The translations under genes were made by a program, and so were the position numbers. From the NCBI GenBank assembly GCA_016931225.1, contig JAFGFE010000018.1, positions 62,001 to 126,000 on the forward strand: DNA of 64,000 bases. Reading direction: 5' to 3'. Source of the DNA: Candidatus Zymogenaceae bacterium (GTDB lineage: Bacteria > Desulfobacterota > Zymogenia > Zymogenales > Zymogenaceae). Under the pieces are notes generated by a model. That model saw only the letters and a program-made list of their open reading frames with translations. It had not been told where the DNA came from and ran no database searches. Below, in pieces: positions 56,088 through 59,387 of the stretch (its first letter is position 1; the number at the start of each line of letters is the position of its first letter).

Positions 56088-57104
56088 CTATCGCCTGAAG
56101 ATGCTCACGTGCGTCCCGGCCCGATCGCCCATCGGCATGCCGTCCACCCAGGAGCGAAACATTTCGGACAGCGTCTCCGTCGTCCGTTTGGGCGTAAACT
56201 CAAGGTAATCCCTCGCCCGTGTCGCATCGATGATCGTCTGGGGGTGATGGAGGATGTGTGCGTCGGTGCCCAGGGGCGGGATGCCCATGCGTCCGAGCAG
56301 GCCCGTAAGCGGCGTCAACGGGGCGGGGAGGAAAAGCGGGCGTGACGGCGATTCGGCGAATTCTACCAGGAAATCGAATAGCTCCCGCTGGGTGATGATA
56401 TCATCCGCGGCCACGTTGAGGGTGAGAAGCCCCTTGGTGTTCGTCTTGATGCCCCGGACCATGGCGGATACCAGGTCCTCCACGTCGAGGTACTGAACGG
56501 GGTGCTTCCCCGAGCCGATGAGGGGGATCGATTTTCCAAAAAACGCCCGTCTGAAGGAGGCATGGAGGCTGGGATGGGCGGCGGGGGGGATGCCCCATCC
56601 GGTCACGGGGGGGATGCGAAGAATGATGACGGTCAGATTCCGGGGGACCATCGTTTCCACCAGGTAGCGCTCCACCGCCAGGTGGCGCCTGCCTGTTCGG
56701 GATACGGGCCTCGGTTTTTCGCTTTCCCGATAGAGTTCCTCCCGGGAGGGGCCGTATACCTGAGCGCTGGAAACGTATACGAAGGTCTTGGTCCCCAGGC
56801 TTTTGGCCACGTTGGCGAGCTTGATGGTGGAGGTGAGGTGCGCCTTCAGGGTGTCGCCGGTTTTGCGGGCCGTCAAGAGGCCGGGGCCGCTCAGGTTCTG
56901 CAGGTGGAAAACGTGGTCGATGTCCCGGGCGATACGGGAAATAACGGTGCTTTTATCGATGTCGTCGAAGACATACTCCACACCCCTCAGCGTATCGGCC
57001 GTTTCGAAAAGGTCGAAGCCTCGTACAAAAAAACCCAGGCTCAACAGCCGGGGTATCAAACGGAGACCTACAGAGGATCCCGCGCCGGTGACCAGGGCTC
57101 GAAT
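56088..57104 (-). CDS. NAD-dependent epimerase/dehydratase, apparent ATT start
   Basis: A 339-residue extended SDR. A conventional start (TTG at 57059) would cut off the cofactor loop. Reading further upstream in frame gives IRALVTGAGSSVGLRLIP, the complete GxxGxxG Rossmann motif, up to an ATT at 57104-57102 with GGGGAGG only 5 bases before it. No ATG, GTG or TTG exists between there and the upstream in-frame stop, which belongs to the CHAT gene. VYVSSAQVYGPSREE and a later PVQYLDVEDL are family marks. The usual YxxxK is not obvious: RTGRRHLAVERYL stands where it should be, so catalytic ability is uncertain. It follows the CHAT gene by 33 bases. Confidence 0.7.
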   Translation of the reverse strand: MRALVTGAGSSVGLRLIPRLLSLGFFVRGFDLFETADTLRGVEYVFDDIDKSTVISRIARDIDHVFHLQNLSGPGLLTARKTGDTLKAHLTSTIKLANVAKSLGTKTFVYVSSAQVYGPSREELYRESEKPRPVSRTGRRHLAVERYLVETMVPRNLTVIILRIPPVTGWGIPPAAHPSLHASFRRAFFGKSIPLIGSGKHPVQYLDVEDLVSAMVRGIKTNTKGLLTLNVAADDIITQRELFDFLVEFAESPSRPLFLPAPLTPLTGLLGRMGIPPLGTDAHILHHPQTIIDATRARDYLEFTPKRTTETLSEMFRSWVDGMPMGDRAGTHVSIFRR

Positions 57105-57137: not shown

Positions 57138-58325
57138 TTACTTGTATGATCCATACAGGACGAACGGCGCCCAGTATCCCGGATGGGCAAGGCGGCGGTA
57201 CCCCTTTTTTTCTTCCGAATCGATAACCATCTGCTGTGAAAGACGCAGGGCCTCGGCCTTGTCGTGATCGGTCAGGTTGTTATAGAAAAACTCCATAAAG
57301 ACCGCGGTCACCCCCCGGTCGATGGTCCAGACCGTCGCCAATACCGAATCGGCCCCGGCCAGCAGGAACGCGCCGGGGAATCCCCCGGAGCCGCTCCAGA
57401 TAAGCGCCGTTCTATCCGCGGAAAGGGTGACGAGGTTCACGTCCATGTAGCTGTAGAGAACCTCGCTCACCGTCAGGTTGCCGTCCTGGCCGTCGCCCCC
57501 GGCCAGCAGGATCCGGGACGATTCGTCGTTGCCCGTTTTTATCACGCTGTGGCTGGTGATGTGGACGACAGAGATGCCCCCCTTCGCCATCTCGTCCCAG
57601 AAGAGCGCCTCCGTGGCGCTCTCTTTTTCATACATCACGGCGCCCGGGATCTCCGCCGTCACCGCCTTCATCTCCAGCGGTGCAACCTTCAGATACGCAA
57701 AACCGCCGGGATAGGGGGAGTTTCCCATGACCAGGCCCCCGAGATTTGTGGACGCATCCAGGGCCAAGGAATCCGCCAAAAGGCTTATGGCGGGGGAGTA
57801 GAAGAGGGCGTAGTCATCCATCAAAAACCGGGGACGGGGCATGAAATCGTTCGTCTTGTCCTTTTCTGAGACGAGGGCGGCGAACGAAAGCTTTCTGAGG
57901 GTGAAGCCGGGAATGATCGCCAGGCGGGAGGCGCCGGCGATATCCTCCTTCACCGGCCCTATCAGTATCTGATAAAGGGCGTACGCCTCGTCCTGGAAGT
58001 TTACCAGCGGGTCCAACGCCTCCATGGATTCCACGAAGGTCTTGACGCGGGTCTCCAGCGGCTCGTCCGTCTCGGGAAGGGTCCGGGTGGCGGTGCCTCC
58101 GGAGGTGATTACCAGTACCTTCATGGTGTCCGCGTTGTATACCAGCACCGCGGTGTCGTCGTCAATCAGGTCTCTGATGATATCGATGGTGGAGGGGCCG
58201 GACGCCTCGACCGGGGCATCTTCCTGGGGGAACGCCGCGGGCGCCGCCGATACGAGGGCGATTGTCAAAATACATGTGATAATAAAAGACCTGGTCGATA
58301 GGATCGCGTGTTTTCTCAAGGTCAC
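57138..58325 (-). CDS. Secreted CHAT-domain protein lacking the catalytic cysteine
   Basis: A 395-residue protein starting at GTG, with AGGGAGG close upstream. Residues 1 to about 34 are a signal peptide. The rest resembles a CHAT (caspase HetF-associated with TPRs) domain: IIPGFTLRKLSFAALV, YSPAISLL, VVHITSHSV (the HxxxH region, H255 and H259), VNLVTLSADRT and FPGAFLLAGADSVLATVW. In active CHAT proteases the last-but-one motif is LSACET; here it is LSADRT, so the nucleophile position holds D304. The only cysteine in the whole protein is in the signal peptide. It is therefore likely a non-proteolytic, exported scaffold or binding protein. No TPRs are present. Genes for nadA and an epimerase flank it on the same strand. 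Confidence 0.72.
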   Translation of the reverse strand: MTLRKHAILSTRSFIITCILTIALVSAAPAAFPQEDAPVEASGPSTIDIIRDLIDDDTAVLVYNADTMKVLVITSGGTATRTLPETDEPLETRVKTFVESMEALDPLVNFQDEAYALYQILIGPVKEDIAGASRLAIIPGFTLRKLSFAALVSEKDKTNDFMPRPRFLMDDYALFYSPAISLLADSLALDASTNLGGLVMGNSPYPGGFAYLKVAPLEMKAVTAEIPGAVMYEKESATEALFWDEMAKGGISVVHITSHSVIKTGNDESSRILLAGGDGQDGNLTVSEVLYSYMDVNLVTLSADRTALIWSGSGGFPGAFLLAGADSVLATVWTIDRGVTAVFMEFFYNNLTDHDKAEALRLSQQMVIDSEEKKGYRRLAHPGYWAPFVLYGSYK

Positions 58326-58412: not shown

Positions 58413-59330
58413 CTAATCGTCCTTTTTGATGGCGATCATCCGATCCAGGGCGATCTTCGCCCCCTTCGCCACGTCCTCGGGGACGACGACCCGGTTTTTC
58501 TCCCCCTTCAGGCAATCCCGGATGTCCGCAAGCGATGTCTTTTTCATATTGACGCAGACCATCTTTTCCGATACCGGGTAGATGTTTTTCTCCGGTGATG
58601 CACATCTCAGGGGGTGGAGTATGCCGATTTCCGTTCCAATCAAAAACGTGTGGTGGGACGATTCTTTCACGTATTTCAGCATGCCGGAGGTGCTGGCCAC
58701 CTGGTCGGCCATGTCGATCACCTCGGGCCGACATTCCGGGTGGACCAGGAGCTCCGCGTCCGGATGGGCGTCCCGGGCTTTTTGCACGTCTTCGGGGGTG
58801 AGTTGTTCATGCACGATGCAGTAGCCGTCCCAGAAGACGATCTCCCGGTCGGTGAAGCGGGCGGTATACTGGGCCAGGTTCCGATCCGGCGCCATGAGGA
58901 CCATGTCGCTCTTGGTGGCGCCGACCACCCGGATGGCGTTGGCCGACGTGCAGCAGATATCGCATTCGGCCTTGGCGGCGGCCGACGAGTTGATGTACAT
59001 CACCAGCTCCGCCCCCGGATACCGTTCCTTGAATGTTCGGGCGTCTTCGGAGGTTATCATGTCCGCCATGGGGCATCCCGCATCGAGCTTGGGGATGAGG
59101 ACCTTTTTTTTCGGTGAGAGGATGGCGGCGCTTTCCGCCATGAAGTGCACGCCGGAAAACACAATGATGTCCGCATCGGTCTCGGACGCCTGAATGGAAA
59201 GACCCAGGGAGTCTCCCACGAAGTCAGAGACATCCTGCACCTCGCTGACGGTGTAATTGTGTGCAAGGAGAACGGCGTTCTTTTTACGCGCCAGTTCCCT
59301 GATTTCTTCGTGAAGCCGCGTCGTTTCCAT
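58413..59330 (-). CDS. nadA: Quinolinate synthase
   Basis: Condenses iminoaspartate and dihydroxyacetone phosphate to quinolinate, the precursor of NAD. In 305 residues the three [4Fe-4S] ligands expected for NadA are C86 in DAGCPMAD, C171 in DGYCIVHEQ and C259 in EKMVCVNMK. LLAHNYTVSEVQD, YINSSAAAKAECD and VHPECRPEV are other family blocks. ATG at 59330 (METTRL) is preferred to a TTG nine codons upstream. A strong promoter precedes it. nadB and nadC are not in the window. Confidence 0.94.
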   Translation of the reverse strand: METTRLHEEIRELARKKNAVLLAHNYTVSEVQDVSDFVGDSLGLSIQASETDADIIVFSGVHFMAESAAILSPKKKVLIPKLDAGCPMADMITSEDARTFKERYPGAELVMYINSSAAAKAECDICCTSANAIRVVGATKSDMVLMAPDRNLAQYTARFTDREIVFWDGYCIVHEQLTPEDVQKARDAHPDAELLVHPECRPEVIDMADQVASTSGMLKYVKESSHHTFLIGTEIGILHPLRCASPEKNIYPVSEKMVCVNMKKTSLADIRDCLKGEKNRVVVPEDVAKGAKIALDRMIAIKKDD

Positions 59331-59358
59331 GGTGATTTCCGATGATTGTCTGTTCAAA

Positions 59359-59387
59359 ATAGTATCCGTTCATCGCTCGTATGTCAA
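59359..59387 (-). promoter_or_regulatory. Sigma70-type promoter of nadA
   Basis: On the minus strand TTGACA (59387-59382), a 17-base spacer and TACTAT (59364-59359), ending 28 bases before the nadA ATG. Confidence 0.78.

Follow-up and report, generated by a model that had tools for sequence, protein, structure and literature searches.

In the window, by which we mean the whole stretch of 64,000 nucleotides that was analysed, a cluster of three genes lies on the minus strand, in the order nadA, a CHAT gene and an SDR/epimerase-like gene. The first gene, nadA (58413..59357, −), encodes quinolinate synthase (Pfam NadA, 2.1e-119), and upstream of it lies a candidate sigma-70-like promoter (TTGACA-17-TACTAT, 59359..59387, −), which is a consensus match only. 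The second gene (57138..58325, −), delimited by its open reading frame, its Pfam match and an AlphaFold2 model, encodes a protein of 395 aa, with a strong Shine-Dalgarno sequence GGAGGAAGGGAGG preceding the GTG start and with the stop codon TAA at 57138-57140. The third gene (56088..57104, −) matches Pfam Epimerase (2.3e-19). On this strand of the window, neither of the junctions between the three genes has a terminator-like site, and a lytic transglycosylase gene adjoins nadA in the divergent orientation.

The 395-aa protein matches the Pfam CHAT family (PF12770) with E = 1.5e-43 and a score of 149.8 bits against the curated cut-off of 24, with residues 112-393 aligned to positions 2-289 of the 289 in the model. 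CHAT is the only Pfam family matched, with no TPR repeats found in the chain and no match to the C14/p20 profile of Pfam or to the anti-phage models of PADLOC at E up to 1. The NCBIfam profile of Csx29 (NF041237), whose cut-off is 300, scores only 10.9 bits, and the neighbours of the gene are nadA and the SDR gene, not Cas7-11.

At the N-terminus a signal peptide of about residues 1-31 (58233..58325, −) can be read from the sequence, having an n-region with K5 and R12, the h-region FIITCILTIALVSA and a putative cleavage site in the region APA/AF, and an N-terminal signal is also present in the three orthologs described below. The sole Cys, C18, is inside this signal peptide, so that the mature chain has no Cys. 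The His residues are at positions 6, 255, 259, 354 and 381, of which H255 and H259 are those of the motif HITSH (57549..57563, −), where the Gly of the usual HG is replaced by Ser (S260). In the survey alignment of CHAT domains the position of the catalytic Cys is occupied by D304 (codon GAT, 57414..57416, −), with SADRT of LSADRT beginning at residue 302, and R337 (codon 57315..57317, −) stands at a column where each of the 111 intact CHATs has Asp. The preliminary description had proposed an exported CHAT protein that keeps the CHAT histidines, has Asp for the catalytic Cys and has no Cys in its mature chain, and all these points hold.

The AlphaFold2 model of the protein, built from an alignment of 45 sequences, has a pLDDT of 90.7 and a pTM of 0.87. 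With Foldseek, the chains of the Craspase TPR-CHAT and Csx29 are the best matches to the model (E ~3e-13), followed by the separases, and VIA-align superposes the model on separase 5fc2 with Z = 27.6 over 300 residues at 3.0 Å and on the Craspase TPR-CHAT 8d9f with Z = 27.6 over 303 residues at 2.9 Å. The predicted fold is thus that of CHAT and separase, as had been expected, rather than another one. When the protein alone was used as query against the PDB sequences, the sole match was a proteasome hit at chance level (E 0.57). It is also observed that two chains of the ciliary central apparatus, 7n6g_1N (Z 18.6) and 9ijj_B (Z 16.5), superpose on the model, so separase-like folds may serve there as structural parts.

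The class Candidatus Zymogenia (Desulfobacterota) is represented in the genome set by four genomes of three genera (G000, the genome of the window, and G001-G003), and each of them has an ortholog, with identities of 49-54%. In a scan of the phylum (395 genomes) the orthologs score 657-739 bits and the next best protein about 144 bits or less, and a pattern scan of ~85,000 GTDB species genomes, of limited sensitivity, gave no further ortholog with identity above 34%. When the GTDB contigs were searched, a single-sequence query gave no ortholog while a four-row profile did, the nearest named contigs being those of Candidatus Zymogenus and Ca. Zymogenaceae. The family therefore looks specific to Zymogenia, as far as such searches reach.

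None of the four orthologs has Cys at the catalytic column, where the residue is Asp in G000 and G001 and Pro in G002 and G003; the G001 ortholog likewise has a mature chain free of Cys, and those of G002 and G003 have 2-3 Cys elsewhere. The loss is therefore not a one-off mutation, and the homologues looked for in the preliminary description, sharing both the loss of Cys and the signal peptide, are found in every Zymogenia genome, with no close homologue having an intact Cys. Among the 116 non-redundant domains of the survey, that is, the four orthologs and 112 others, Cys stands at the catalytic column in 111 of the 112, and the exception (L077, from candidate division KSB1) is a degenerate domain beside an intact CHAT in the same protein. 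This second CHAT of L077 (frame residues 623-964) is very divergent, with Thr at the Cys column. Ten columns are invariant in the intact CHATs, E218, H255, H259, C304, G324, W333, D337, Y348, P382 and W385, where the invariance of P382 and W385 arises partly by construction because the survey was partly picked by the motif HP..WA.F. The two motif His are invariant in the 111 intact CHATs and in the four orthologs alike. In the clade of the four pseudo-CHATs, as we call the orthologs, C304 and D337 are lost in all four members (R/R/R/K at the D337 column) and W333, four residues before D337, in three; the loop after the Cys position is four residues shorter, and R305 and W310, found in fewer than 10% of the intact CHATs at those positions, are invariant. 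We do not claim the loss of D337 to be a direct swap of the S1 Asp: by our own count, separase D2151, which is replaced by K670 in Craspase (PMC9729208), lies four residues beyond the D337 column.

The dN/dS ratio of the pseudo-CHATs is 0.07-0.40 where it is computable (<0.45), with dS near saturation, and for comparison it is 0.14-0.29 for the SDR gene and 0.04-0.27 for NadA. Since the Cys is lost class-wide, the predicted fold is that of CHAT and dN/dS is low, the protein is a conserved pseudoprotease. In the tree the four pseudo-CHATs group together (support 100) on a stem of 1.33 changes per site, and the six intact Zymogenia CHATs form a clade that does not include them; with this separate position and long stem, an origin as a recent duplicate of the Zymogenia TPR-CHATs is not supported. 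In a comparison of only four pseudo-CHATs with six intact Zymogenia CHATs, sets of unlike divergence, the active-site segments of the pseudo-CHATs have 17 of 38 columns invariant versus 96 of 241 elsewhere (p = 0.6), and those of the intact CHATs have 25 of 38 versus 75 of 224 (p = 2e-4). The conservation of the pseudo-CHATs peaks instead at residues 276-285, 356-365 and 366-385 and up to the C-terminus, with a clade-specific insertion sitting in the C-terminal stretch 351-395.

The preliminary description regarded export as unusual, CHATs being usually cytoplasmic, which is not borne out for the relatives of this protein. By a simple home-made heuristic, not SignalP, a signal-like N-terminus is present in 64 of 74 complete TPR-CHATs versus 8 of 74 internal-start controls, the same rule being positive for 66 of 168 unrelated large non-CHAT ORFs. 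The six intact Zymogenia TPR-CHATs, which carry TPRs and are not genomically linked to the pseudo-CHAT gene, all have, as judged by eye, a clear signal sequence at the N-terminus, such as MKRIAPVLLALFVFIGTISAGPAAG. To judge from these N-termini, the intact and the dead CHATs use the same export route in the same cells, which gives a regulatory model some footing.

Besides these proteins, each of the four Zymogenia genomes encodes a further exported protein, 944-981 aa long, which has TPRs and, at the C-terminus, a degenerate CHAT (L164 at G000:C14:84811-87081 in the genome of the window; L165, L147 and L149 in the others). Its first CHAT half is still recognisable, the Pfam CHAT match in G002 having 1.4e-7 and covering model positions 2-89 only, and the His and Cys motifs were not found in the degenerate CHAT. 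In the tree of the first half common to both, the two dead families are sisters with weak support (51/74), and on that tree it is possible that one early loss or two independent losses gave rise to them. In G002 and G003 the gene of this second dead CHAT adjoins one for an exported protein of ~1160 aa that has TPRs only; G000 and G001 also have long TPR frames of a similar kind.

Each of the four Zymogenia genomes has the genes nadA, CHAT and SDR in this order and on a single strand, so the adjacency of CHAT and epimerase proposed earlier is indeed conserved, and so is that of CHAT and nadA. Since the wider synteny is also partly kept across the four genomes, the adjacency of the three genes alone is weak evidence for a joint function; in G001 and G003 a related gene pair is present at the place where the lytic transglycosylase gene adjoins nadA in the window. 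The motif YxxxK is missing in all four SDR orthologs (SRTGRRHL, SRRGKELL, SRRGKDLL, TPAGKEYL), as the preliminary description had noticed for the window, and the glycine motif is atypical, so that the SDR is likely itself a pseudo-oxidoreductase. Its structure prediction has a pLDDT of 47, from a shallow alignment. The SDR opens directly with the Rossmann strand, with no obvious export signal, and is therefore probably cytoplasmic. The products of the SDR and CHAT genes are thus probably in different compartments, and because of this a direct partnership of the exported CHAT with the SDR is unlikely: the coupling proposed earlier stands for the genes but not for their products.

It is noted in passing that the SDR gene has no ATG, GTG or TTG ahead of the Rossmann strand in the genome of the window and in G002, and that a standard start is possible in G003 (TTG) and G001 (GTG). 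All four genomes share an Ile codon (ATT/ATC/ATT/ATA) at an equivalent position, 5-8 nt downstream of GGAGG, and reading from it gives I(R/K)(A/V)LV[TI]G[AS]G (the window, L020, L021 and L022). A non-canonical start at ATT 57102-57104 (−) is thus probable, and the pattern suggests an infC-like start at AUU, AUC or AUA, or one at CUG.

Based on these results, we propose a model for the role of the protein. In the model, the exported dead separase/CHAT is kept by purifying selection as a binding module, and it would act as a scaffold or adaptor in the envelope, with the periplasm as the probable site. The binding would involve not the old active-site cleft but a different surface, with the conserved loop 276-285 and the C-terminal stretch 351-395 as the best candidate surfaces, and the partner would most plausibly be an exported intact TPR-CHAT or a regulator of such TPR-CHATs. 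We hold the chances that this model is right to be evenly balanced. An important point is that, in contrast to the intact relatives, the old cleft shows no conservation beyond that of the remaining domain, which favours a scaffold or adaptor over a substrate decoy. Of the two roles put forward in the preliminary description, a periplasmic scaffold or an inhibitor-like decoy, we thus favour the former, the cleft being under no special constraint of the kind expected for the latter.

In the decoy or inhibitor scenario, which is c-FLIP-like, the dead CHAT would occupy, through its old cleft, the substrates or activators of the intact exported TPR-CHATs and dampen them. This would fit with the presence of the intact TPR-CHATs in the same genomes with the same export route, with the retention of the fold as a whole and of the two motif His, and with the precedent that mammalian caspase homologues whose catalytic residues are missing can regulate negatively (cited in PMC3501461). 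However, a decoy acting through the old cleft should keep the cleft, while the active-site segments are not preferentially conserved and the invariant Asp is lost together with, in three of the four orthologs, the Trp of the same loop; by contrast, the cyanobacterial pseudo-orthocaspases keep an acidic specificity pocket (PMC6426788). The scenario is thus weakened, and we consider it unlikely. It is also rather improbable, in our estimate, that the protein is a structural one of the envelope, its CHAT fold being a building block that associates with TPR or cell-wall proteins and has no link to proteases. The match of the model to the ciliary chains and the lytic transglycosylase gene beside nadA, with the related pair in G001 and G003, are consistent with such a role.

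Very unlikely, in our judgement, is an alternative enzyme, in which H259, Asp/Pro304 and R305 would serve a different reaction in a reshaped pocket: the pseudo clade keeps R305 and W310 throughout, but the variation of residue 304 between Asp and Pro is unsuited to a conserved catalytic group, and the cleft shows no extra conservation. That the gene is a decaying pseudogene or an assembly artefact, for which only the long stem branch would speak, is hardly conceivable and is rejected, since dN/dS is well below 1 and four independent genomes of three genera have intact frames, a signal peptide and an unchanged order of the genes. The scaffold or adaptor model can be extended, as a doubtful proposal that we make only tentatively, to an envelope CHAT system of Zymogenia, in which the intact exported TPR-CHATs are accompanied by the two dead exported CHAT families as regulators or scaffolds. 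If this proposal is true, the system would be a bacterial parallel to the pairs of caspases and pseudo-caspases.

Bacterial CHATs are relatives of separase and have been studied as switchable proteases of cell death and defence. In Zymogenia, a selected, lineage-wide loss of the Cys has occurred in an exported CHAT beside intact exported CHATs in the same genomes, which suggests for this CHAT an envelope role without cutting. It would be a natural separation of the binding functions of CHAT from its proteolysis, and it draws attention to the cell envelope, the apparent destination of most of the related TPR-CHATs, where their function has been little studied. Among openly licensed papers we found no description of a pseudo-CHAT.

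Compared with the bacterial TPR-CHATs (PF12770), the pseudo-CHAT has in common the full-length CHAT profile, the separase-like fold, both His and, with most of these relatives, the export signal, whereas it differs in having no TPRs, no catalytic Cys and no invariant Asp after the Trp, in the post-Cys loop that is shorter by 4 residues and in the clade-specific C-terminal insertion. DdvA (8rot), a CHAT-containing anti-sigma factor that spans the membrane, is also similar in having a CHAT fold in a membrane-linked protein (Z 22, rmsd 6.7), but its CHAT keeps ATHG and ACEG and belongs to a large TPR-containing protein. Separase (5fc2, 5fby) and the Craspase TPR-CHAT/Csx29 (8d9f, 7y9x) have a similar fold (Z ~27) but are intracellular and have the His-Cys dyad, which is H585/C627 in Craspase (PMC9729208), whereas the pseudo-CHAT has lost the Cys of the dyad and appears to be exported. 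The pseudo-orthocaspases of cyanobacteria and Alphaproteobacteria (PMC6426788, PMC7889975) resemble the pseudo-CHAT in that a bacterial family of the caspase fold has lost the His-Cys dyad and the loss is conserved. Among C14 orthocaspases, 858 of 9,994 have no catalytic dyad (PMC6426788); the cyanobacterial YS type has a TAT-like N-terminus (PMC6426788, PMC7889975), and SyOC, the pseudo-orthocaspase of Synechocystis, affects survival of oxidative stress (PMC7889975). They differ in belonging to the C14 p20 family, in often having Tyr-Ser for His-Cys and in keeping the acidic pocket, whereas in the pseudo-CHATs the Asp is replaced by Arg or Lys. By analogy, the pseudo-orthocaspases are thus a precedent for the loss of the dyad in a sister family.
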